55,241 nt of DNA from Spirochaetota bacterium (GTDB taxonomy: Bacteria; Spirochaetota; JAAYUW01; JAOAHJ01): contig JAOAHJ010000006.1 in assembly GCA_026415295.1 (NCBI GenBank), positions 1 through 55,241 of the forward strand, given 5' to 3'. The position numbers and the translations under genes are program-made. The notes beneath the pieces are model-generated. The model was given only the letters and a program-made list of their open reading frames with translations, did no database searches and was not told the DNA's origin. Positions 2,184 to 42,644 of this stretch are shown in pieces; positions within the stretch are counted from its first letter, which is position 1; each line of letters opens with the position of its first letter.

Positions 2184-4517
2184 TTAAAAAACTTTTTCAA
2201 AAACTTCTTCTACATGATCTACAAGATGAAACTTAATACCCTTTTTTAAATATTCAGGAATTTCCTCAAGATCAACATCATTACCTTTAGGTATTATTAT
2301 CTCTTTAATTTTAGCTCTTCTTGCTGCAACTATTTTTTCTTTTAATCCACCAATAGGTAAAACTTGGCCCGTTAAAGTTAATTCACCAGTCATAGCAATA
2401 TAAGGTCTAATTTTTATATTTCTCGCAAGAGATAGTAAAGAAGTCGCCATTGTAATTCCTGCTGATGGTCCATCTTTTGGTGTTGCCCCTTCTGGTACAT
2501 GAAGGTGAATTTCTGAATCATCAAAAAATTTAGGATCTATATTGTATTTTTCACATACAGATCTTACATAAGAGTATGCAATATTTGCTGATTCTTTCAT
2601 TACATCTCCAAGTTGACCAGTTAACTTAAATCCTTTCCCTCCTTTGATATTAATAGATTCTATAATTAAAGTTGCACCCCCCATTTGAGTCCAAGCAAGT
2701 CCAACTGCAACTCCTGGTTTTTTAACTTGAATTAAATCCTCTTCTCTTATTTTTGGAGGTCCCAAAAGTTCCCTGATATCTTTTGTCTTAAGATCTTTAT
2801 TATACTTTTCTTTCATTACTTTTTTTGTCGCTATCTTTCTTGCAATTTTTTCTATCTCTTTTTCAAGGTCTCTTACTCCAGCTTGTCTAGCATAATTATT
2901 AATTAAATACATAAACACAGATTTTGACAATTTAATATCATCTTCTTTTAAACCATGTTTTTTTAACTGTTTTGGAAGTAAATATTTTCTACCAATTTCA
3001 TATTTTTCTTCATCAATATAACCAGAAAGCCTTATAACTTCCATTCTATCAAGAAGTGGTCTTGGAATTGTATCTAAAGAATTTGCAGTTGTAATAAAAA
3101 ATACATGAGATAAATCAAATGGAACCTCAAGGTAATTATCCCTAAATTCATAATTTTGTTCTGGATCTAAAACTTCAAGTAAAGCAGAAGCTGGGTCTCC
3201 TTGAAAAGAAACTCCAAGTTTATCAATCTCATCAAGCATTATAACTGGATTTTTAGTTTTAGTTATTTTAAGTGCAGATATAATTCTTCCAGGCATAGCC
3301 CCAACATATGTTTTTCTATGACCTTTTATTTCAGCTTCATCTCTCATGCCACCCAGAGAAAATCTAAAAAACTTTCTATTCATAGCTTCAGCAATAGATT
3401 TTCCTAAAGAAGTTTTTCCACATCCAGGAGGTCCTACAAGGCAGAGAATAGAACCTTTTATATCTTTATTAAGTTTTCTAACTGCTAAAAATTCTAAAAT
3501 TCTCTCTTTTACATCCTTTAATCCATAATGATCTCTTTCTAAAATTTCTTTTGCTTTTTTAATATCAATTTTTTCTTCAGAAAAAGTATTCCATGGAAGA
3601 GTTAATACCAAATCAAGCCAGTTTCTTAAAACAGCATATTCAGAAGTATGAGGTTCCATAGAGCTAAATTTTTCAAGTTCTGATTCAACTTTTTCTTTTA
3701 CCTCACCTTCAAGTTTAAGTTTAGATAGTAAATCTTTATATTTTTCAACTTCGATACTTTTTTCATCTGTTTCTATACCAAGCTCTTTTTTAATCGCTTT
3801 AAGCTGCTCTCTTAAAAAGAATTCCCTCTGTTGCTTTGATATTTTTTCATTTATCTGATTATAAATTCTTTTTTGAATTTCAGCAATCTGCATTTGCTTT
3901 TGTAAATATTCAACAACCTTTCTCATTCTAAGCTTTAAATCAAATGTTTCAAGAACAACCTGTTGTTCTTCTCGAGTTAAATCAAGCAAATATGCAGTAA
4001 AATCGGTAATTTTGGAAGGAGTATCTGCATTAAAAACAGTAGCTTTTACCCTTTCCATAAAGAATCTATTCTGTTCAGCAAGTGATTTAACTTCATCAAT
4101 TATAGAAGCTTGATATGCACGAATCTCTGGGTCATCTGCATTATAGTTCTCTTCATAATACTCCACATCTGCAAAGATTATCTCTTTTTTCTTATAAAAT
4201 TTTTTAACTTTGAATCTTTTAACTGAATAAATAAGTAAAGAAATTATTTCTTCAGAAATATTTATCTTTTTAGCAACCTTAATAACTGTTCCTACCTCAT
4301 AATAATTATCAATCTGATTTAAATCTTTATTAGGATCTTTAACTAAAATTGCAGCAAGATAATTATTTGGTTCTAATTGTTTATTAAGCTCTTCAGGAAT
4401 AAGATCAATATCAAGATCGATTGGCATTACAATCCCGGGAAATATAGGTTTTGGAAGAACTGGGAATACACATAAGGATTCAGGTAAAACTTTATCAACT
4501 TCAACTAAATTAGCCAT
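2184..4517 (-). CDS. lon: ATP-dependent protease Lon
   Basis: Lon degrades misfolded and regulatory proteins in the cytoplasm as a hexameric AAA+ serine protease. The full 777-residue architecture is present. The N-terminal substrate-binding domain covers ~10-200, followed by a coiled-coil linker (~200-300). The AAA+ domain has Walker A GPPGCGKT at 362-369 and Walker B VIMLDEID at 425-432. The C-terminal protease domain has the Ser685 (KDGPSAG) and Lys728 (GGLKEK) dyad. The length matches bacterial LonA. The ATG at 4517 has an AAGGAT ribosome site. The gene is convergent with deoC and has its own promoter candidate at 4578-4606. I see no CIRCE heat-shock element upstream. Confidence 0.98.
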   Translation of the reverse strand: MANLVEVDKVLPESLCVFPVLPKPIFPGIVMPIDLDIDLIPEELNKQLEPNNYLAAILVKDPNKDLNQIDNYYEVGTVIKVAKKINISEEIISLLIYSVKRFKVKKFYKKKEIIFADVEYYEENYNADDPEIRAYQASIIDEVKSLAEQNRFFMERVKATVFNADTPSKITDFTAYLLDLTREEQQVVLETFDLKLRMRKVVEYLQKQMQIAEIQKRIYNQINEKISKQQREFFLREQLKAIKKELGIETDEKSIEVEKYKDLLSKLKLEGEVKEKVESELEKFSSMEPHTSEYAVLRNWLDLVLTLPWNTFSEEKIDIKKAKEILERDHYGLKDVKERILEFLAVRKLNKDIKGSILCLVGPPGCGKTSLGKSIAEAMNRKFFRFSLGGMRDEAEIKGHRKTYVGAMPGRIISALKITKTKNPVIMLDEIDKLGVSFQGDPASALLEVLDPEQNYEFRDNYLEVPFDLSHVFFITTANSLDTIPRPLLDRMEVIRLSGYIDEEKYEIGRKYLLPKQLKKHGLKEDDIKLSKSVFMYLINNYARQAGVRDLEKEIEKIARKIATKKVMKEKYNKDLKTKDIRELLGPPKIREEDLIQVKKPGVAVGLAWTQMGGATLIIESINIKGGKGFKLTGQLGDVMKESANIAYSYVRSVCEKYNIDPKFFDDSEIHLHVPEGATPKDGPSAGITMATSLLSLARNIKIRPYIAMTGELTLTGQVLPIGGLKEKIVAARRAKIKEIIIPKGNDVDLEEIPEYLKKGIKFHLVDHVEEVFEKVF

Positions 4518-9070: not shown

Positions 9071-10324
9071 TTAATTAAATTTTATTATTCTTCTTTCTTT
9101 ATTTATAACTTCTTCAAGGTTTTTGCCAAAAATCCTTATCATCGGTTCTTTACCAATACAACCATTATCATAAATAATATCGGGGGCTTCTTTTAATTCT
9201 TTGCAAACTAAATCTATAATCCACTTCAAAGACATTCCTTCCTGTTCTCTAATTTCCTCTGGTTCTTTTTCTCTGTCAACAAAATAAACTTTTAATCCAG
9301 AATTAATAGCATTTTCTATATATTTTTTATCATATTTAGTATTAGTACAACAATTAATGCTTGGAAAATACCTCTTTATTTCTAAAATCATCCTTCCTGT
9401 ATGTGAAGTTCCATAAAATGATGGTTCCTCATATATTTTTACTTTATCATTTACAAGTCTTATTCTTCCAGGAAATTTACAGATATCATTTTCATTTGAA
9501 GCAAATGGTAATGAATATGAATAATTTTTACCAACCTCTGGAATTGTGTAAATACCACTATCAATTATATAATTTTGTATTTCTTTCATTTCTTCTATAA
9601 TAGAGTATCTATACCAATCTTTTAATAAATTTACAGGAGATGTTATAAAAACATTGCTATGCTTTAGAATTTTATTCATCAATGAAACTGCTGTATCAAT
9701 AGCATCATATATATTATATTTCATAGATAAAAAAATTAGAACAAGCATTGAAAAAGAGCAACCAGTTCCCCTAAAATCATCTACCTTACTTTTTATATAA
9801 ACTTTCTCTTTTACTAATTTATAATCTTTATATATAACTTCAACTTTTTCATCAGATGATGTAATAACTATTTTATCTTTAAAATCAAAATTAATAAAAG
9901 AATGATTTTGATCAATTAATTTACATAATTTGGCTTCTTCCCTATTTAATATTACAAGATCACAAAAATTAATATTTTTTTTTATTTCCTTTTCATCTAA
10001 AAACTTTAACCCAGTAGATGAATAGATTACTGGATTCCATAAAATAAAAGCTTCTTTAAAAATATCTCTTATATATTTTAACAAATCTGGCTCACATAAT
10101 CCTATTTTGATAAATTTTATATTGTCTTTAAATTTAATTATTTCATCAATAATATCTTCTTTTCTTCTAAACTTAAATCCAAAAGCTTTATCAAATGTTT
10201 GAATTGTAAAAGTAGAAATTGTTGATAAAGGTGTTATGCCCATCAAACTACAAATTTGAATATCTTTTATAAAACCAGCACAACCAGATGGATCAAGTCC
10301 TGATATTACTAAAATATTACACAT
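9071..10324 (-). CDS. thiDN: bifunctional HMP(-P) kinase / thiamin-phosphate synthase (ThiDN)
   Basis: Residues ~1-230 form a ThiD-type ribokinase-fold domain, opening with VISGLDPSGCAG and closing with the anion-hole-like segment DFRGTGCSFS. Residues ~240-417 form a ThiN domain: IPEVGKNYSYSLP, FPGRIRLV, GTSHTGRMILEI, YDNGCIGKEPMIRIFGK. ThiD phosphorylates HMP and HMP-P. ThiN joins HMP-PP to the thiazole phosphate, replacing ThiE; it is best known from archaea and some bacteria. The glycine-rich motif has Cys where Gly is common (SGCAG for SGGAG). This is the last gene of the riboswitch-controlled thi4-thiC-thiDN operon, 220 bases after thiC. The ATG at 10324 has only a weak ribosome site. 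Confidence 0.9.
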   Translation of the reverse strand: MCNILVISGLDPSGCAGFIKDIQICSLMGITPLSTISTFTIQTFDKAFGFKFRRKEDIIDEIIKFKDNIKFIKIGLCEPDLLKYIRDIFKEAFILWNPVIYSSTGLKFLDEKEIKKNINFCDLVILNREEAKLCKLIDQNHSFINFDFKDKIVITSSDEKVEVIYKDYKLVKEKVYIKSKVDDFRGTGCSFSMLVLIFLSMKYNIYDAIDTAVSLMNKILKHSNVFITSPVNLLKDWYRYSIIEEMKEIQNYIIDSGIYTIPEVGKNYSYSLPFASNENDICKFPGRIRLVNDKVKIYEEPSFYGTSHTGRMILEIKRYFPSINCCTNTKYDKKYIENAINSGLKVYFVDREKEPEEIREQEGMSLKWIIDLVCKELKEAPDIIYDNGCIGKEPMIRIFGKNLEEVINKERRIIKFN

Positions 10325-10544
10325 AAATAATCACTCTAAAAAATTTTTTATATTTTAAAATCATTAATTAAATTTTAATTTTTAATTAATATCATTGATT
10401 ATCTTTATTACTTAATATTTAATATTTATAATTTATTTTATTATCTATTATTTATTATTTATTATTTTTTATTTTTTTTAATTTTAATAATTTCATTTAA
10501 TTCATTTTTTTAATTTACACTTTATTTTTTAACATTTTTTATAT

Positions 10545-11849
10545 TTATTTATATTTTTCATTTTCACTATTTTTATTTTCCAAAAATCTTTGAAAAATTT
10601 TAATAGCACAAAATGGTCCACACATAGAACAACCTTCATCTTTTTCTATTTTGGATCTTTTAACATAACTTTCAAATTTATCTTTATCAATAACATAATT
10701 TTTCATAGATTCAAAATCCATATTTAATCTTAAATCATTAAATATTTTATTTTTTTCCTTATATTTACCTTTCATTATATCTACAGAAATAGCAGCAATT
10801 TTAGCTGCCAAAACTCCCATTTTAACATCATCTTCATCTGGAATTGAAACATGCTCAGATGGAGTTACATAACATATAAAATCTGCCCCATAATATCCTG
10901 CAAATGCTGCTCCAATTGAAGATAAAATATGATCATATGGAACTCCAAAATCAAATGGTAAAGGACCTAATAGGTAAATAGGTGAATTTTTTCCATACTT
11001 TTTCATAAGCTTAACTGTTGTTTCAATTTGGTCCAAAGGTACATGTCCTGGACCTTCCAAAATTACCTGTACATTTTTCCTTCTTGCTTTTTCAACTAAT
11101 TCTTCAAATATAAACCATTCTTCAAGTTGTAGACTATCAAGAGAATCATAAATATTACCAGGTCTTAAAGAATCTCCAAGACTCAAAGTTACATCATATT
11201 CATTTGCTATATCTAGTATTTCATCAAAATATTTATAAAAAGGATTTTCTTTTTTATTTTTTATAATCCATCCACCTATAATTGAGCCACCTCTTGATAC
11301 TATTTTCATCAATCTTTGACTTTTTTTTAACTTTTCAACCATATCTTTAGTAATGGAAACATGTAATGTCATAAAATCAACACCTTCTTTTGCATGTTCA
11401 AGGAATAGTTCTATAAATTCTTCTTCTTTAAAATCTACAACATTATTTTTTTCTAAATATGCTTTATGAGCTAAATCATAAATCGGAACAGTACCAAATG
11501 GAATTTCAAAATTATTAATAAAATACTCTCTCTGCTTTTTTAAATCACCCCAAGTTGATAAAAGCATTATGGTATCAGCTCCATTCTCGACAGCTTTAAT
11601 AAATTTTCTTTTTTCAAATTCAAAATCATTCAAATTTTTAGAAGTCCCAATATTTGCATTTATCTTTATATGGGTACCTTCACCAATTGCTTTTGGAATC
11701 TTTATATTATGATTTTTATTTTTTGGTATAACAATTTTTCCCTCTTTTATTTTATCAATTAAAACATTGAGTTCTAAATTTTCATAGAATGCAATATCTT
11801 TAAAATACTCTGGCACTCTATTATTTTTTAATTCCTCTATTATTGTCAT
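10545..11849 (-). CDS. thiC: phosphomethylpyrimidine synthase ThiC
   Basis: ThiC is a radical SAM enzyme that rearranges aminoimidazole ribotide (AIR) into HMP phosphate, the pyrimidine half of thiamin. Motifs include GADTIMLLSTWGDL, SRGGSIIGGW, EGPGHVPLDQIE and YYGADFICYVTPSEH. The C-terminal [4Fe-4S] cysteines are Cys407, Cys410 and Cys414 (CSMCGPFC). This is C-X2-C-X3-C, one residue shorter than the E. coli C-X2-C-X4-C. At 434 residues it is the short form, without the long N-terminal domain of E. coli or plant ThiC. The start has an AAGGAAT ribosome site. It lies 146 bases downstream of thi4 in the same transcript. Confidence 0.97.
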   Translation of the reverse strand: MTIIEELKNNRVPEYFKDIAFYENLELNVLIDKIKEGKIVIPKNKNHNIKIPKAIGEGTHIKINANIGTSKNLNDFEFEKRKFIKAVENGADTIMLLSTWGDLKKQREYFINNFEIPFGTVPIYDLAHKAYLEKNNVVDFKEEEFIELFLEHAKEGVDFMTLHVSITKDMVEKLKKSQRLMKIVSRGGSIIGGWIIKNKKENPFYKYFDEILDIANEYDVTLSLGDSLRPGNIYDSLDSLQLEEWFIFEELVEKARRKNVQVILEGPGHVPLDQIETTVKLMKKYGKNSPIYLLGPLPFDFGVPYDHILSSIGAAFAGYYGADFICYVTPSEHVSIPDEDDVKMGVLAAKIAAISVDIMKGKYKEKNKIFNDLRLNMDFESMKNYVIDKDKFESYVKRSKIEKDEGCSMCGPFCAIKIFQRFLENKNSENEKYK

Positions 11850-11995
11850 AATTATTCCTTAAAAATTTTTATTTAACTTTAATTTTTATTATCATAATGA
11901 TAAATTTTTTACCCTTAATATAAAACCTATGTTTCTTATTATTTTTTTTAGTTAATTAGTTCTATTAGTTTAATATTATTATCAGTTTTTTATTA

Positions 11996-12757
11996 TTATT
12001 TTTTTAATCTCATTAATATCTCATTTGCTGTTTTAATTCCTGATTTTATCATTCCTCCAAAAATTGGACCCATCCTAAATGAATTACTTGATGATGTAGC
12101 GGCCATACCCATTACAAATAAACCAGGGTAAATTTCTTTTGAATTTTCTACTACCATTTTTTCTCCATTTTCAGCATTCATTGGATACTCCTTTATTTTT
12201 AAATCTATCATGCCTCTATCTACAAGATAGTTTACAATATGAGCAGGATGACCTGTAGCATCTATACAATAATTTGCTTTAATTGAGATGGGATCAATAT
12301 GTAACTTTAATTTACTAACAGAATTAAAATTAATAACAAATCCACACACTTTTCTTTCTACATTATCAAATAGTATATCTTCAACATTTATATTATTAAA
12401 TATTTTAGCTCCTGCTTTTGTAGAATTATAGATTAAAGCCCCAGCAAAATGAACTGCATCAATAATTAGAAATTCACCATTTTCAGTATAGTTTATTCTA
12501 TTTTCTTCAAGAAAATTTTTAATATCATTCTCAACAATAATCTCATTAAAAAACATACCCCCACCCCATATACCACCACCAGGCTCATTTTTAGCTTCGA
12601 ATATACCAACATTAATTCCATTTTTAGCAAGAATGTAAGAACATGCTAATGCACTTGGTCCACAACCTGCTATTGCCACATCAAGCTCTATTGCTGAGCT
12701 AAACTTTTTAAAAAAAGAATCAACAATAAACCTTGTTATTTGTATATCTTTATTCAT
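11996..12757 (-). CDS. thi4: sulfide-dependent thiazole synthase Thi4
   Basis: This is a Thi4-family FAD/NAD-binding protein that makes the thiazole half of thiamin from NAD and glycine. It has the dinucleotide motif AGCGPSALACSYILAKNG (29-46), EPGGGIWGGGMFF (~59-70) and the C-terminal GMAATSSSNSFRMGPIFGGM block. In plants and yeast a cysteine in a CMDP motif donates the sulfur once and is destroyed; here the position is His153 (KLHIDP). This matches the archaeal, catalytic Thi4 class that uses free sulfide. Its length of 253 residues also fits the prokaryotic type. It is the first gene of the operon, has an AAGGAG ribosome site, and lies about 135 bases after the riboswitch terminator. Confidence 0.92.
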   Translation of the reverse strand: MNKDIQITRFIVDSFFKKFSSAIELDVAIAGCGPSALACSYILAKNGINVGIFEAKNEPGGGIWGGGMFFNEIIVENDIKNFLEENRINYTENGEFLIIDAVHFAGALIYNSTKAGAKIFNNINVEDILFDNVERKVCGFVINFNSVSKLKLHIDPISIKANYCIDATGHPAHIVNYLVDRGMIDLKIKEYPMNAENGEKMVVENSKEIYPGLFVMGMAATSSSNSFRMGPIFGGMIKSGIKTANEILMRLKK

Positions 12758-12892
12758 ACAAAACTCCTTATTTTTTATCTATTTTTAATTTTTTATTTAT
12801 TAAAAAATTTTTAATTTTAATTCTTTTTAATTAAATAAATTTATTTAATTAAAATTATTTAATAAACTTATTAAAAAATTTTAAAAATAAAA

Positions 12893-12916
12893 AATCCCTC
12901 TTAAAGCAGAGGGATT
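12893..12916 (-). terminator. riboswitch expression-platform terminator
   Basis: A perfect 9-bp stem, AATCCCTCT (12908-12916 on the transcript side) with AGAGGGATT, closes a 6-base loop. On the minus strand it is followed by a run of U residues. The 5' arm (AUCCCUCU) can pair instead with GGAGGGAU at the 3' end of the TPP aptamer: 8 pairs, one of them G-U. This gives an antiterminator that TPP binding would remove. Confidence 0.85.
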
Positions 12917-12945
12917 AAATTAAAATAAATTATTATTTTATATAT

Positions 12946-13036
12946 GATCCCTCCGCTGGTATTAACCAGATCAGGTTCAAAGGGTCGAAAGCTTCCACTT
13001 TCCTCTCAGCCCCGGAACTCAGGAGCTCCCCCAAAT
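12946..13036 (-). promoter_or_regulatory. TPP riboswitch (THI element)
   Basis: The minus-strand transcript contains the conserved THI-box blocks in order: a G-rich start (GGGGGAGCUCC), GGCUGAGAGG, ACCCUUUGAACCUGAUCUGG, UUAAUACCAGCGGAGGGA. It lies directly upstream of thi4-thiC-thiDN, separated by an intrinsic terminator at 12893-12916. High TPP should therefore stop transcription before thi4. The outer P1 helix is weak by eye, so the exact ends are approximate. Confidence 0.95.
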
Positions 13037-13224
13037 TTAATTACATATAATCATATAAATAAATAATTTCAACTATTTTAGATAATAAAATTACTTTTCG
13101 ACTTGTTGAAATTTTAATAAAATGAATTAATTATAATAATAGAATTAAATTGTTCTCCTAAATATTTTTTATTTTTTATTATAGTATCTATTTTTTTTAT
13201 TAAAAAATTAAGGAGGAGGAATTT

Positions 13225-32141: not shown

Positions 32142-32435
32142 ATGATAAAAAAAGATAGTTGGGTTAAAATAGAATGTATTATATTAAAACCTGAAGAAAG
32201 AACAGCAAATATCCCTGATGATACAAAAAAAGTTCCTTATATATTTCATGCTATAGGTTATCTTAAAAAAGATGCAAATATTGGAGATATTGTTGAGATA
32301 AAAACTAGAATTGGAAGAACACTTACAGGAAGACTTATTGAAGAAAATCCTACTTTTAGGCATAATTTCGGAAATCTTGTTAAAGAGCTTGTAGATATAA
32401 ATAATGAATTAAAACAAGAATTAAAAAATTTATAA
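32142..32435 (+). CDS. ortA: 2-amino-4-ketopentanoate thiolase, alpha subunit
   Basis: The small subunit (97 residues) of the thiolase that splits 2-amino-4-ketopentanoate with CoA into alanine and acetyl-CoA in ornithine fermentation. Recognised by SWVKIECIILKPEERTANIP, IGDIVEIKTRIGRTLTGRL and ENPTFRHNFGNLVKEL. It has a strong TGGAGG ribosome site. It sits directly ahead of ortB, oraS and oraE, the arrangement known from clostridial ornithine clusters. No other family fits this sequence. Confidence 0.93.
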   Translation: MIKKDSWVKIECIILKPEERTANIPDDTKKVPYIFHAIGYLKKDANIGDIVEIKTRIGRTLTGRLIEENPTFRHNFGNLVKELVDINNELKQELKNL

Positions 32436-32529
32436 TAAAAAATTAATATTAAAAAAATAATTAATTATTTTAATCATTAAATAAATAATTAAGAAAAATA
32501 CTTATAAATTAAATTTATAGGGTAAAATT

Positions 32530-33999
32530 ATGAATGAAAATATTAAATTGAATGATAAAAGTTATGAAGCAGTAATGAAAAGAAAAAATGAAATAATGAA
32601 AAAGTCTCTTGGAATAGATTACTCAAAGTATTATATTTCCAATATCGCTTTTGATTATGAAAAAATGATGGAAGATGTTGGTTATTCAGTCCCTGAAATA
32701 TTAAAAATTCAAAATAGATTTAAGGTTGGAAATACTCCTTTATTTTACCTTGAAAACATTACAAAACTTGTAAGAAAATATGCAAAAAAAGGAAAAGGTG
32801 CTAAAATCTATATAAAGGATGAAGCAGCAAATGCTTCTGGATCATTTAAAGCAAGAAGAGCTGCTTTATCTGTATATTTAGCAAAAAAACTTGGATATAA
32901 AGGAGTTGTTGCTGCAACTTCTGGAAATTATGGTGCTGCTGTTGCTTCCCAATCTGCTATGCAAGGTTTAAATTGTATAATAATTCAGGAAGTTTTTGAT
33001 TCAAGATTCGTTGGTCAACCAGAAATTGTTGAAAAATCAAGGCATTGCGATGCATATGGTGCTGAAGTTATTATGTCTTCTGTTGGTCCTGAATTATTTT
33101 ATTCTCTTTTATTAACACTAGAAGAAACAGGTTACTTCAATGCTTCTTTATATACCCCATTTGCTATAGCAGGTGTAGAAACTTTAGGATGGGAATTGAT
33201 TCATCAAATGAGAGAAATTGAAGGAAGAGATCCAGATGCAGTTATCATTACACATGCAGGTGGTGGAAATTTAACTGGTACAGCAAGAGGAATATTAAAA
33301 GCTAAAATAGAGCTTAAAGAAACTAATTATACTGAAATAATAGGGTGTTCAGTTGATTTAAGTGGTTTGCATATGGCATCAGATAATGATTTTAACAAAA
33401 AATCTTTTACAACAGGACATACAGGATTTGGAGTTCCTTTTGCTACTTGGCCAGATAGAGCAGATACACCAAAGAATGCTGCAAGACCATTAAGATATAT
33501 GGATAGATACATTACTGTTACACAAGGTGAAGTTTTTTATGCAACTGAGATGCTTTCAGCTTTAGAAGGCCTTGAAAGAGGCCCAGCTGGAAATACTTCC
33601 CTTGCAGGTGCTATTAATCTTGCTATGGAAATGGATTCTAATCAAATAATTGTTGTTCAGGAAACTGAATATACGGGGGCAGGAAAACATCCTCAAGCTC
33701 AACTTTCCTTTGCTAAAGAAAATGGTATCGAAATAAAAAGAGGAGATCCAAGAGATTCTATTAATGGTAAAAATATTATTTTACCAAGAAATATTTCTGA
33801 TTTTTATCTTAATGAACTTGATCTTAAAAATTTGAAAAAATCATATCTTAGAAATATAATTAAAAATTTCTATAATGAAATAATTACAGATGTTGATTTA
33901 GAATTTTTATCCTTTGATATTAATGAAAAAATTAGTTGGATTAAAGAAACAATTTTTGAATTATTAAATGAAATAAAAAAAGAAAAAAATAAAAATTAA
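32530..33999 (+). CDS. ortB: 2-amino-4-ketopentanoate thiolase, PLP-dependent beta subunit
   Basis: The catalytic subunit of the OrtAB thiolase, a fold-type II PLP enzyme related to threonine synthase. The PLP lysine is Lys107 in NASGSFKARRA. VVAATSGNYGAAVASQ is the phosphate/substrate loop and ITHAGGGNLTGTARG binds the cofactor phosphate. The length of 489 residues agrees with known OrtB. It converts the keto product of ornithine to alanine and acetyl-CoA. It lies between ortA and oraS, with only a 14-base gap to oraS. Confidence 0.94.
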   Translation: MNENIKLNDKSYEAVMKRKNEIMKKSLGIDYSKYYISNIAFDYEKMMEDVGYSVPEILKIQNRFKVGNTPLFYLENITKLVRKYAKKGKGAKIYIKDEAANASGSFKARRAALSVYLAKKLGYKGVVAATSGNYGAAVASQSAMQGLNCIIIQEVFDSRFVGQPEIVEKSRHCDAYGAEVIMSSVGPELFYSLLLTLEETGYFNASLYTPFAIAGVETLGWELIHQMREIEGRDPDAVIITHAGGGNLTGTARGILKAKIELKETNYTEIIGCSVDLSGLHMASDNDFNKKSFTTGHTGFGVPFATWPDRADTPKNAARPLRYMDRYITVTQGEVFYATEMLSALEGLERGPAGNTSLAGAINLAMEMDSNQIIVVQETEYTGAGKHPQAQLSFAKENGIEIKRGDPRDSINGKNIILPRNISDFYLNELDLKNLKKSYLRNIIKNFYNEIITDVDLEFLSFDINEKISWIKETIFELLNEIKKEKNKN

Positions 34000-34013
34000 A
34001 AAAGGAGTCAAAT

Positions 34014-34370
34014 ATGAAATCAGGACTTGAAAGAAAAGATGATTTTGAAAAAAGAAGAGAACATTTAAAAAATTTATCAGATGAAGAATTAAAGAAAAGA
34101 TTTTGGGAATTAACAGAAAAAATAGTAGATCCCTTAGTTAAATTAGCTAAAACACATACATCTCCATCAATTGAAAGATCAGTACTATTAAGAATGGGAT
34201 TCAATTCTATTCAATCTAAAGCTATTGTAGAAGAAATTATAAAAAAAGATCTTTTAGGACATGGAGCAGGAAATATTGTCCTTAAATTAGCAGAAAAAGA
34301 GAGGATAGATTATCTTAAAGCAGGACAAAAAATTATCGAAGGGTACCCAATAGAAAATTTATTCCAATAA
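34014..34370 (+). CDS. oraS: D-ornithine 4,5-aminomutase, S subunit
   Basis: The small subunit (118 residues) of the adenosylcobalamin- and PLP-dependent enzyme that converts D-ornithine to 2,4-diaminopentanoate. Family features include KRREHLKNLSDEELKKRFWE, THTSPSIERSVLLRMGF, AGNIVLKLAE and KAGQKIIEGYPIE. A GGAG ribosome site precedes the ATG. It follows ortB by 14 bases and precedes oraE by 116 bases. Confidence 0.94.
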   Translation: MKSGLERKDDFEKRREHLKNLSDEELKKRFWELTEKIVDPLVKLAKTHTSPSIERSVLLRMGFNSIQSKAIVEEIIKKDLLGHGAGNIVLKLAEKERIDYLKAGQKIIEGYPIENLFQ

Positions 34371-34486
34371 AATTAGGATTTATATTAAATAGATTTTTTA
34401 TTATAATTTTTGGATAAATTTATGATAAAAATAAATTTATATGAAATAATTTTTATGAAATTTTAGTATAAATTAAGGAGTATTAT

Positions 34487-36679
34487 ATGAAATTAGATCC
34501 AAAAAAGAAATTAGATTTTAAATATATACTTTCAGATTTAAAAAATTTTAGAGCAAAAAAAAGAGGTTGGGTGTGGAGAGAAAAACCAGAATCTATAAAG
34601 TATGGTGAACACACATATTATGATCACTCCACACCTTTAAAAAAATCCATACCTCTCCCTGCAGCTAAATATTTCGGGAATATTGATCCACAACCAAAAC
34701 CAATAATAACTACAGAAATAGCTTCTGGAAGATTTGAAGATGACATAAGAAGAATGAGAATGGCAGCATGGCATGGGGCTGATCATATTATGGTTATCAG
34801 AACAACAGGACAATCACACATTGATGGATTAATTGAAGGAACACCTGAAGGTATTGGAGGTGTTCCAATTACAAGAAAACAAGTAAGAGCTACTAAAAAA
34901 GCTTTAGAATTAATTGAAGAAGAAGTTGGTAGACCCATAAATTTCCACTCTTATGTTTCAGGTGTTGCAGGACCAGAAATTGCAGTTATGTATGCTGAAG
35001 AAGGTATTGCAGGTGCTCACCAAGACCCACAATACAATGTTTTATATAGAAATATAAACATGTTTAGATCTTTTGTAGATGCTGCAGAAGCTAAAAAAAT
35101 TATGGCAGATGCACATATTTTTCAAATTGATGGAGCACATAATGCAAATGCTACAGCAAAAAAAGCTTGGAATGTTAGACCTGAACTTATGGTTCAACAT
35201 GCAATAAATTCTCTTTATTCTGTAAAGGTAGGGATGAATCCTTCAAACATTGGTCTATCAACTGTGCCACCAACAGCTGCACCAGCTCCAAAAATTTGGT
35301 ACGATTTACCTTATGCTGTAGCTCTGAGAGATTTGTTTTCTGATTTTAAATTCAGAGCTCAACAAAATACAAGATATGTTGAATCTGATACTGATGAAGC
35401 TACTATTACACATGTTATTGATACTTTAATATCAGCTTTAACATCAGCAGATATTCAGTCTACTATTACTCCTGATGAAGGAAGAAATGTTCCATGGCAT
35501 ATTAATAATATAAGAGCTGTAGATGGAACAAAACAGGTTTTTAACTCTCTTGATGGTATAAAAAAATTAGTAAAACTCGATATGGATGGCCCTCTTGGGA
35601 AAATGGTTAGAGAACTAAAAGAAAGAGCTGTTTTATTTTTAGAAGAAATAATTGAGGTTGGTGGATATTTTGAAGCAGTATCAAAAGGATATTTTGTCGA
35701 TTCTGGGTATTATCCAGAAAGGAATGGTGATGGAATTGTAAGAGAAAAAGATGGAGGTGTGGCTGCAAATTCTATAGTTGAAAGAAAACCTGATTATTTT
35801 GCTCCTGTATGTTCTCATTTTGGAAATAATAATATTCCCTCAAAATACAAAAAAGCTTGCGATGCTATAGATGGATGTACATTATGTAAACCCGAAAAAA
35901 TTCAATTCATAGATGAATTGGATCCTGAAGATAATGTTGAAAAAAGAATTAAAAAATATTTAGAAGATGAAGAAAAAGGTATCATTAAGCCTGAAGCTGA
36001 ATGGCATGGGGATGGTATAGTTACAGTAGAAATGGTTATTCCAACCTTTTATGAAGCAGCAGAGGTTGCTGCACTTGAGTTTGCAAAGAAAATGAATCTT
36101 GAAGATCCTCAAATAATTCACAAAAGAGTTCTTCATCCAGCTGAAGCTTCTGCTTTCTTAGTAAAAGGAAAACTTAATGCTTCAATTAATTTATCTGATA
36201 TTAAGATTCCAGAAAAAGAAGAATATTTAAGCGATAGTGAAATAGAGGAATTTGTTAAAAAACATGATTTAAAAGTTGTTGGTGCAACTGTTGGGGAAGA
36301 TGAGCATTCTGTAGGAATGCAAGAAATTTTAGACATTAAACATGGAGGAATTGAAAAGTGGGGATTTAAATGCTATTATCTTGGCACCTCTGTACCAGTT
36401 GAGAAACTCGTAGATGCAGCGATAGAGGTTGGTGCTTGTGCAATACTTGCTTCTACCATAATTACTCATGGTGATGTTCATAGAATAAATATGAAAAAGC
36501 TTGATTCAATTTGTAGAGAAAAAGGAATTAGAAATAAGATATTATTAATAGGAGGAGGAACTCAAGTTACAGATGAAATAGCAAAAGAGTGTGGATTGGA
36601 TGCAGGATTTGGAAGAGGAACTCATGGAATAGATGTTGCTAATTTTATAGTTAAAAAACTTAAAGGAATAAAAAAATAA
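34487..36679 (+). CDS. oraE: D-ornithine 4,5-aminomutase, E subunit
   Basis: The large subunit (730 residues) with a TIM-barrel catalytic domain (~100-440) and a C-terminal Rossmann-type cobalamin domain (~590-725). The B12 motif DxHxxG is present as DEHSVG with His607 as the cobalt ligand. Lys618 lies 11 residues on, matching the PLP lysine (His618/Lys629) of the C. sticklandii enzyme. QIDGAHNANATAKKAW is another hallmark. It needs both B12 and PLP. Its GGAG ribosome site is good. The racemase (orr) and 2,4-diaminopentanoate dehydrogenase (ord) that complete the pathway are not in this window. Confidence 0.97.
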   Translation: MKLDPKKKLDFKYILSDLKNFRAKKRGWVWREKPESIKYGEHTYYDHSTPLKKSIPLPAAKYFGNIDPQPKPIITTEIASGRFEDDIRRMRMAAWHGADHIMVIRTTGQSHIDGLIEGTPEGIGGVPITRKQVRATKKALELIEEEVGRPINFHSYVSGVAGPEIAVMYAEEGIAGAHQDPQYNVLYRNINMFRSFVDAAEAKKIMADAHIFQIDGAHNANATAKKAWNVRPELMVQHAINSLYSVKVGMNPSNIGLSTVPPTAAPAPKIWYDLPYAVALRDLFSDFKFRAQQNTRYVESDTDEATITHVIDTLISALTSADIQSTITPDEGRNVPWHINNIRAVDGTKQVFNSLDGIKKLVKLDMDGPLGKMVRELKERAVLFLEEIIEVGGYFEAVSKGYFVDSGYYPERNGDGIVREKDGGVAANSIVERKPDYFAPVCSHFGNNNIPSKYKKACDAIDGCTLCKPEKIQFIDELDPEDNVEKRIKKYLEDEEKGIIKPEAEWHGDGIVTVEMVIPTFYEAAEVAALEFAKKMNLEDPQIIHKRVLHPAEASAFLVKGKLNASINLSDIKIPEKEEYLSDSEIEEFVKKHDLKVVGATVGEDEHSVGMQEILDIKHGGIEKWGFKCYYLGTSVPVEKLVDAAIEVGACAILASTIITHGDVHRINMKKLDSICREKGIRNKILLIGGGTQVTDEIAKECGLDAGFGRGTHGIDVANFIVKKLKGIKK

Positions 36680-40388: not shown

Positions 40389-41765
40389 ATGAAATTTAAA
40401 ATAAATTTTTTTAAAATATTTAGATTAAGTTATTATAAAAAATATTTTATTTATATCTTACTTTTATTTTATCTTTTTTCTATTTTATCATGTCATCAAC
40501 CATTACAAAATAGTTTTTCTATTGTAAATCCAAAAACTATTCTGGTAGGTAATTCTGCAAATTCTACAATTGCAAATAAATGCATCATTGATAAAAACAA
40601 TGATATAATAGTTGTTGGAACTTCAGATGGTGTTTTATATGGTTATGGATTAATTGGAACTAAAGATGTTTTTGTATTAAAATATGACTCAAATTTAAAT
40701 GAACCTCCTTTAGTAGTTAAACGATTCAATTGTGAATCTTCAAATATAAGTGTTTCATCAATTATTGCAGATAGTAAAGGTAACTACTTTATTTGCGGAA
40801 TAACCCAAGGTAACTTTAATTTTCAAAATAAAATTGGATTTCAAGATATATTTATTCTAAAACTTGATGAATCTTTAAATCCAATATTTACTAAGATTAT
40901 TGGTTCTCCAAATGGTTTTTTGCATGCTTCTGATATTAAAATAGAATCATATGACAATATTTATATTACAGGCTATACTTACAATTCTTTTAATGGCCAA
41001 ATAATTAATGGTATTCAAGATGGTTTTCTAATAAAGTTAGATAATAATGGAAATCTTTTATGGACTAGAATTTTTGGAGTTAAAAATAGTGAAACTTATG
41101 GAAATGAAATGACAATTGATAATAATAATTATATTTATATTACTGGATCAACTAAAGGAAATTTAAATGATAAGATAAAAAATGGATATGAAGATTTATT
41201 CCTTATTAAATATGATCAAAACGGAAATCAAATTTTTACTATTTTAAATGGTGCACCAAATTCAAATACTTGGGGAATAAATATATTATCTGATAATAAA
41301 GGAAATATTTATGTTTTTGGAGGAACAACTGGAAATTTAAATGGAATTTCTAAAAAAGGACTTATTGACACTGTAATATTAAAATATACAGATAGTGGCA
41401 CAAGAATATTTACTATATCATTGGGGGGAAATTCTTCTATACTTTTACCAAAAACAATTAGTAAATCAAAACTAGGGTTTTTGTTTTTAGGAGGAACATT
41501 TGAAGGAAATATTATTGAAACTCAGTTTGGAACTATTACATTAAAAGGCAATAGAGATCTTTTTATAATAATTTTTTCAAGTGAAGGTAATTTTAAAGAT
41601 ATTAAAGTTTTAGAACAACCAAATGCTATATTAGAATTAAATACTCTTCTTTTTGATAGATTCGATAATTTATTAATCCTGGGAAATTCAAACAATGGTT
41701 ATCGTAATTTCCCAAAAATTGGAAATATTGACTTTTTTTTAACAAATGAAATAAATTTAAAATAA
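40389..41765 (+). CDS. lipoprotein with SBBP-type beta-propeller repeats
   Basis: A 458-residue exported lipoprotein with lipobox ILSC (Cys ~35). The mature protein is built of about seven repeats of ~50 residues with the pattern 'D..GNIYI.G.T.GNLN...NG..D.FLIKYD.NGN..FT'. Good examples are VFVLKYDSN, IFILKLDES, GFLIKLDNNGN, LFLIKYDQNGN and TVILKYTDSGT. Such SBBP repeats form a beta-propeller found in surface proteins of spirochaetes, Bacteroidota and others, whose roles are poorly known. An AAAGGA ribosome site precedes the ATG. It is tail-to-tail with tRNA-Gln. Confidence 0.85.
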   Translation: MKFKINFFKIFRLSYYKKYFIYILLLFYLFSILSCHQPLQNSFSIVNPKTILVGNSANSTIANKCIIDKNNDIIVVGTSDGVLYGYGLIGTKDVFVLKYDSNLNEPPLVVKRFNCESSNISVSSIIADSKGNYFICGITQGNFNFQNKIGFQDIFILKLDESLNPIFTKIIGSPNGFLHASDIKIESYDNIYITGYTYNSFNGQIINGIQDGFLIKLDNNGNLLWTRIFGVKNSETYGNEMTIDNNNYIYITGSTKGNLNDKIKNGYEDLFLIKYDQNGNQIFTILNGAPNSNTWGINILSDNKGNIYVFGGTTGNLNGISKKGLIDTVILKYTDSGTRIFTISLGGNSSILLPKTISKSKLGFLFLGGTFEGNIIETQFGTITLKGNRDLFIIIFSSEGNFKDIKVLEQPNAILELNTLLFDRFDNLLILGNSNNGYRNFPKIGNIDFFLTNEINLK

Positions 41766-41769
41766 AAAA

Positions 41770-41840
41770 CTGCGGGTGAAGGATTCGAACCCTCACAAAC
41801 AGATCCAGAGTCTGTCGTGCTGCCATTACACTAACCCGCA
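41770..41840 (-). tRNA. tRNA-Gln (anticodon CTG)
   Basis: The minus strand folds as a cloverleaf with the T1-A72 acceptor typical of tRNA-Gln (TGCGGGT/ACCCGCA). The anticodon stem is ACAGA/TCTGT with loop CTCTGGA (anticodon CTG), and the T arm is GAGGG-TTCGAAT-CCTTC. The discriminator is G and CCA is not encoded. Confidence 0.93.
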
Positions 41841-41996
41841 ATATATAATTTAATTACTAATTTATTATAAAATCTATTGTAGACTATTTTTTATATATCA
41901 TTATAACTTTATTTATAAATTTAATTTTTATTGAGTATTTAATTCTAATAACCATTAGAAATTAACAAACCTTTTAAAATTGTCAAGATTCTTATT

Positions 41997-42173
41997 TTAT
42001 GCTTCCTCTTTTATTGAATTTTTTAATCCAATGTTATTTTTTATAATTTTTATTTTAGGAAAAAATAAACCTGTTTCATTTTTATATTCTAAATATTCTC
42101 TTCCTAGATACTCACACAATATTTTTTCCTCTTTTGGTCTTCTATATATCAACAGTATAGTTAGACCAAATAA
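41997..42173 (-). other. 3' continuation of the methyltransferase gene beyond an in-frame TAG
   Basis: Directly after the TAG at 42174-42176 the same frame runs on for 58 codons to a TAA at 41997-41999. It contains YRRPKEEKILCEYLGREYLEY, the conserved C-terminal EE...GxEYxxY motif of the isoprenylcysteine/phospholipid methyltransferase family. This is coding sequence in the correct frame cut off by one stop codon. The plus-strand ORF opposite (41980-42186) is its shadow. Confidence 0.75.
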
Positions 42174-42644
42174 CTATACAAAATAAACAATATAATTTGA
42201 AAGAATTATTGAGATTCCAAAATGAAAAAATATAAAACCAATATAAATGGGATGTCTAATATTGTAAGGACCTTTTTTTACTACTCTATGTTCTTTCTTT
42301 ACTTCTATAACCGATGAATACTCTCCATTAAGTATAACACTTGAAATACAAATTAAAAACAAACCAAAAAGAGATAGTAAAACACCAATAATTCTAAATA
42401 TAATAAAGGTAAAAAAATTAAAATAAATAATAAATTTAATTTTTAATAGAAGCAAAAATAGAATTATAATTTCTAAAACTGTCAAAACTTTTAAGATTAT
42501 TTTATCTAATCTTACTACTTCCCCAAACCTTATTAAATAATCATCTAAAACTTTCTTCTTTTTACTTAATTGTTCAACCTTTATTCTTATTATTGCATAA
42601 ATGATATAAAGGAAACAAACTAATATTATAAAATATCTTTCCAA
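42174..42644 (-). CDS. isoprenylcysteine/phospholipid methyltransferase-like membrane protein, interrupted by TAG
   Basis: The first 156 residues of a PEMT/ICMT-type integral membrane methyltransferase: hydrophobic segments at ~4-20, 53-72, 80-105 and ~135-155, and the SAM-binding signature KKGPYNIRHPIYIGF. The reading frame stops at TAG (42174-42176). The missing family C-terminus follows in the same frame; read through, the protein would have about 215 residues, the normal size. The TTG start at 42644 is supported by AGAGAAG upstream. It may be a recent pseudogene, a base-call error or a read-through gene. TAG is a genuine terminator elsewhere here (genes ending at 7773, 13846 and 15483). 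The substrate is unknown. Confidence 0.75.
   Translation of the reverse strand: MERYFIILVCFLYIIYAIIRIKVEQLSKKKKVLDDYLIRFGEVVRLDKIILKVLTVLEIIILFLLLLKIKFIIYFNFFTFIIFRIIGVLLSLFGLFLICISSVILNGEYSSVIEVKKEHRVVKKGPYNIRHPIYIGFIFFHFGISIILSNYIVYFV

Follow-up and report, generated by a model that had tools for sequence, protein, structure and literature searches.

The window, by which we mean the whole 55,241-nucleotide stretch that was analysed, corresponds to contig C6 in the 39-contig draft assembly (2.10 Mb) of a Spirochaetota bacterium and has a G+C content of 22.7%. On its minus strand lies one frame of 156 residues, a TAG, 58 further residues and a TAA (Table 1), and profile matches of the read-through protein assign this gene to the isoprenylcysteine-carboxyl-methyltransferase (ICMT) family. 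The next gene downstream is an ordinary tRNA-Gln, within about 1 kb; in the closest named relative a tRNA-Gln (CTG) also lies within that distance of the methyltransferase gene, on its upstream side (3091-3161 there). Elsewhere the window holds a thiamine gene cluster (9071-13042), the ornithine fermentation genes OrtA, OrtB and OraE (32142-36679), each above its cut-off, and an SBBP beta-propeller protein (40389-41765) resembling the Leptospira lipoprotein LipL53 (204 bits against a cut-off of 400).

Table 1. Features of the interrupted methyltransferase gene and of the window around it.
Feature	Position	Strand	Remarks
Interrupted ICMT-like membrane methyltransferase gene	41997..42644	-	TTG start 42644, TAA end 41997
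Signature GPYNIRHPIY	42243..42272	-	Y-to-R spacing one residue shorter than in 94/94 homologues
In-frame TAG, residue 157	42174..42176	-	Inside last long predicted helix (152-180)
In-frame continuation, 58 codons + TAA	41997..42173	-	Conserved family C-terminus E-E ... Y-x-x-Y
Perfect 9-bp inverted repeat, 7-nt loop	42155..42179	-	Arms 42171-42179 and 42155-42163; TAG in first arm
Possible internal TTG restart ORF, 51 aa	41997..42152	-	Mechanical; no sign of use
tRNA-Gln, anticodon CTG	41769..41841	-	Next gene downstream; ordinary
TPP riboswitch	12931-13042	-	Ahead of sulfide-dependent thiazole synthase, ThiC and an HMP-kinase-like gene (below cut-off)

The read-through protein scored above the cut-offs of both PF04140 (ICMT; 35.5 bits, cut-off 24), in a match over residues 91-177 that spans the stop, and PF04191 (PEMT; 30.3 bits, cut-off 25); PF01208 as the kind of methyltransferase was a guess that proved irrelevant. 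Against the equivalog model NF040696 (cut-off 160) it scored 89.6, and two intact relatives likewise fell below that cut-off (110.9 and 112.2), so that this model assigns no exact substrate to the enzyme. A profile that combined the window protein with its two nearest relatives matched 4a2n at 7.9e-29. The read-through sequence was also modelled with AlphaFold, a Q standing in for the stop and 19 homologues, all from the genome-contig scan, forming the input alignment; this model reached a pLDDT of 86.1 and a pTM of 0.81, and Foldseek placed it on Ma-ICMT (4a2n) with TM scores of 0.76/0.85 over 201 columns. It predicts helices at 132-147 and 152-180, the TAG coming after the first five residues of the second one. 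As in Ma-ICMT (PDB 4A2N; PF04140; NF040696), the RHP and E-E motifs are present in the window DNA; unlike the ICMT family, the window gene has an in-frame TAG at residue 157 and one residue fewer before RHP. The C-terminal E-E and Y-x-x-Y are encoded, but 3' of the TAG and hence outside the translated product. A product ending at the TAG would be missing the greater part of the predicted helix 152-180 as well as the conserved E-E and Y residues, and it would probably have lost its activity.

The stretch beyond the TAG, which contains in frame RRPKEEKILCEYLGREYLEY, the sequence quoted in the earlier note, looks like genuine coding sequence. The alternative frames contain 8 and 6 stops, the codon score of the extension is coding-like (15.3 bits), and its identity to the two nearest relatives (23/44 and 20/44) matches that of the part before the stop (71/156 and 69/154); the open continuation is therefore more than chance. 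It aligns without gaps with the two closest relatives to about residue 198, E172 is invariant in 20 of 20 sequences and E173 is conserved in at least 90%, and no frameshift or second stop was found in the window gene. The TAG column is a sense codon in all 43 aligned homologues (F in 19), none of which shares the stop; the two closest relatives have F and W there, and for distant members the alignment is loose at this position. These 43 came from a pool of 54 loci (27 of the 62 from the contig scan and 27 from the genome search), in which 2 loci were swapped for the same genes as P0002/P0003 and from which 11 ORFs outside 150-300 aa were dropped. The claims of an in-frame TAG inside a conserved methyltransferase gene, followed in the same frame by the family's C-terminus and a TAA, are thus confirmed by the ICMT match across the stop, the conservation of E172/E173 and the codon comparison with relatives that the earlier note had proposed; to these we add the strand, minus, which that note did not give.

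A 51-codon ORF begins 21 bases past the TAG, and the two halves could in principle be made separately, by restart at TTG 42152, and act as a split enzyme. We consider this extremely unlikely: no purine-rich ribosome site was seen by eye before TTG 42152, the protein would be split in the middle of a predicted helix, and the 43 aligned homologues run across this place as one ORF.

TAG looks like a working stop in this genome, and within our sample the methyltransferase case is isolated. The release factors RF1 (521.4 bits, cut-off 423.25) and RF2 are both complete and above their curated cut-offs; the decoding genes identified are normal. None of the 36 tRNA genes found, every anticodon of which was read, has a CTA anticodon, in a tRNA set that is incomplete (no Ala or Ile (GAT) tRNA was found, and 150 of the 161 first-look candidates were scored). 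No PylS above the cut-off was found in the genome, the best PylS_Cterm match being 35.9 bits against 178.15; among control genomes, 13 of 14 had PylS_Cterm matches, one of them over the cut-off. Within the window, TAG ends 5 other ORFs among the 50 counted (55 listed, less 5 overlapping ones). For a wider sample we took the window and 20 further stretches (455,241 bases, ~22% of the genome), which contain 360 mechanical ORFs of at least 100 aa, ending in TAA (282), TGA (42) and TAG (36, this gene included). In thirteen of these ORFs the frame stays open for at least 25 codons beyond the stop, in a stretch mostly free of other ORFs. The two highest-scoring extensions follow a TAA and, on inspection of the encoded sequences by eye, seem to be genes in their own right, for a response regulator and an acylphosphatase; the third is the methyltransferase gene, and the remaining ten score below 10. 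Among the 36 TAG-ending ORFs two have such a free extension, this gene (15.3) and one other (39 codons, 2.2). In the 455 kb, by a test that is blind to frameshifts, no other TAG, TGA or TAA was found ahead of a free and clearly coding-like extension that was not a separate gene, and none of the 51 ABC_tran matches in the genome contains an in-frame stop (0/51).

These results uphold the earlier note on two points: three or more further genes end normally at a TAG (5 others in the window, 35 others in the 455 kb), and wholesale reassignment is unsupported; and the suggested search for pylT/pylS-type or suppressor tRNA genes came back empty among the 36 tRNAs, with PylS below its cut-off. Genome-wide reassignment of TAG was rejected on the intact RF1, the lack of a CTA tRNA among the 36 and the 35 other ORFs that end in TAG, and pyrrolysine on the lack of a PylS over the cut-off. 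The idea that this particular TAG is recoded, by pyrrolysine or a suppressor tRNA, draws on the incompleteness of the tRNA set (no Ala, no Ile (GAT); 150/161 candidates scored), in which an unseen tRNA is possible; with the same RF1, tRNA, PylS and ORF counts against it, we give it next to no credence. Even taken jointly, a split gene and recoding have a very small chance of being right.

The gene has a second lesion, which the earlier note overlooked. In all 94 homologues compared, three residues separate an aromatic position (Y in 86, F in 7, L in 1) from R[HN]P; in the window gene there are two (GPYNIRHP). The 94 comprise all 62 contig-scan loci, 27 genome-search loci and 5 phylum-search loci, matches without a locus being left out; many are near-identical Bradyrhizobium copies, and the roughly 30 from Spirochaetota are diverse. 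Sixty-two of them were found by the pattern pieces HPIY.GFI and an N-terminal stretch, neither of which fixes the spacing of the motif. The missing codon is separate from the TAG, from which it lies roughly 85 bases away, and falls in the gene's most conserved motif, the RHP signature, which belongs to the cofactor site. The codon missing before RHP makes preserved function less likely; the short signature may, on the other hand, predate the stop and be tolerated.

The two closest homologues of the window gene, in a Spirochaetales bacterium and a Spirochaetota bacterium, are both from metagenome-assembled genomes, and the contig scan gave the same two genes as nearest relatives; with the Leptospira-like lipoprotein gene they point to kinship with Spirochaetota. 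At E ≤ 1e-12 a homologue was found in 10 of 391 other genomes sampled across the phylum. Of the three genomes from the same order, one has such a homologue and another only a weak ICMT-family match; the enzyme type is thus patchy and can be done without. The wider ICMT family is common, with a match at E ≤ 0.001 in 36 of 60 genomes, its own included. No second ICMT copy in its own genome reached E ≤ 0.001, and this single copy speaks somewhat against dispensability. The genomes searched yielded no near relative from the same family by which the stop might be dated or dN/dS estimated.

In the gene tree the sister of the window gene is a homologue from another order (genome G012; support 0.96), and not that of the same-order genome G003; an old duplication or transfer is possible behind this pairing. 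Two "TGA" triplets considered as internal stops in the G012 homologue were rejected, as one coincides with the end of its ORF and the other lies beyond it. In-frame TGA codons do occur inside ICMT matches in a Methanomethylicota archaeon (L077 4001-4240) and in genome G009 (L020 1501-1821), so that this gene seems not to be the only interrupted member of the family.

The branch of the window gene is 0.57 long, against 0.66 for its G012 sister, and at positions where the other three of four genes agree it departs at 17 of 64, compared with 16/63, 14/61 and 3/50 for the relatives, which does not set it apart from two of them. By branch lengths and departure counts in these four genes there is no sign of faster evolution along its branch. 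Together with the lack of a frameshift or a second stop, this counts against a decaying gene. Since the parts on either side of the stop are equally conserved and change has not become faster, the loss must be recent, or else the stop must be an error or leaky. An error would mean that the TAG is a wrong base or a minority allele in the draft consensus and that the living gene is intact except for its short signature; the draft state of the genome (39 contigs), the preserved rest of the frame and the unaccelerated evolution fit this. We nevertheless hold it unlikely, given that the 51 ABC_tran matches are free of in-frame stops, that no other such ORF turned up in the 455 kb (by the frameshift-blind test), and that the gene has another peculiarity besides the stop, the missing codon: with some 85 bases between them, the two are hard to explain by one error, which makes a single base error less likely.

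The TAG itself lies in one arm of a perfect short inverted repeat. The window has 1435 TAG/CTA triplets, and arms of such repeats contain 10 of them, or about 0.7%, for a feature that was noticed after the fact. When the 30 nt around the TAG are cut out alone, they form a hairpin of -7.9 kcal/mol, a stability reached by 1 of 500 mononucleotide shuffles; in 63-nt and 156-nt pieces an overlapping 8-bp stem replaces this hairpin in the minimum-energy fold, and at 156 nt the predicted stability does not exceed that of shuffled sequences (z -0.22). A conserved recoding hairpin was rejected on the behaviour of the 156-nt stretch, the local 9-bp repeat alone standing out. According to Klaric et al. 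2020 (PMC7202029), template switching in imperfect repeats, a known cause of mutation in E. coli, makes the repeats more perfect, and a TAG in the arm of a perfect short inverted repeat is like the typical product of the quasipalindrome mutations they describe; unlike those cases, the window gene has no near relative that displays the state before the change. The repeat may hint at a templated mutation, chance is also a possible origin, and we place little weight on it.

A real TAG might also be passed at a low rate by ordinary tRNAs, giving a little full-length enzyme, with the stop perhaps serving as a temporary brake on expression. Belinky et al. 2021 (PMC7918605) propose such a brake for many bacterial cases and describe in-frame stops as widespread, with dN/dS below 1. 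That precedent, the intact frame and conservation downstream and the isolated 30-nt hairpin of -7.9 kcal/mol speak for read-through. As in those reported cases, the window gene has a single TAG with conserved flanks; unlike them, its stop is unshared by the aligned homologues and accompanied by a second lesion. With the stop in 0 of 43 homologues, the hairpin displaced by the overlapping stem in the 63-nt and 156-nt pieces (z -0.22 at 156 nt) and a short signature that lowers the chance of a working full-length protein, we regard read-through as quite improbable. A combined scenario, in which a template switch from one repeat arm to the other created the amber codon and this codon is now leaky, yielding a low, hairpin-dependent dose of a methyltransferase with a short RHP signature, seems to us very improbable.

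Based on these comparisons, we consider the gene to be a pseudogene of recent origin, derived from an enzyme of a known kind, with a probability of roughly 0.7. Its ancestor would have been an ordinary ICMT-like integral-membrane methyltransferase, which would have acquired a nonsense change at codon 157 and lost one codon just before the RHP signature; RF1 would terminate translation at the TAG, leaving a membrane fragment of 156 residues that lacks the C-terminal part of the catalytic domain and is very probably inactive. Two candidate disabling lesions of the kind looked for in a pseudogene were found, the TAG and the missing codon, both directly observed and both absent from the relatives, and each would presumably impair the product. 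We infer that these lesions are real and recent. Of the three options that the earlier note had left open (a nonsense mutation, a base error, or read-through or recoding), it is the nonsense mutation, in a decaying gene, that is best supported because of the second lesion in the same gene, and recoding loses ground for want of a suitable tRNA among the 36 found, a PylS above the cut-off or an aligned relative with the same stop.

The state of the gene suggests the ongoing loss of a membrane methyltransferase from this lineage, and the analysis supports the standard meaning of TAG in a low-GC spirochaete lineage, with little import beyond annotation. It also illustrates cleanly how another in-frame lesion, here in a signature motif, can help to distinguish a gene in decay from one that is recoded.
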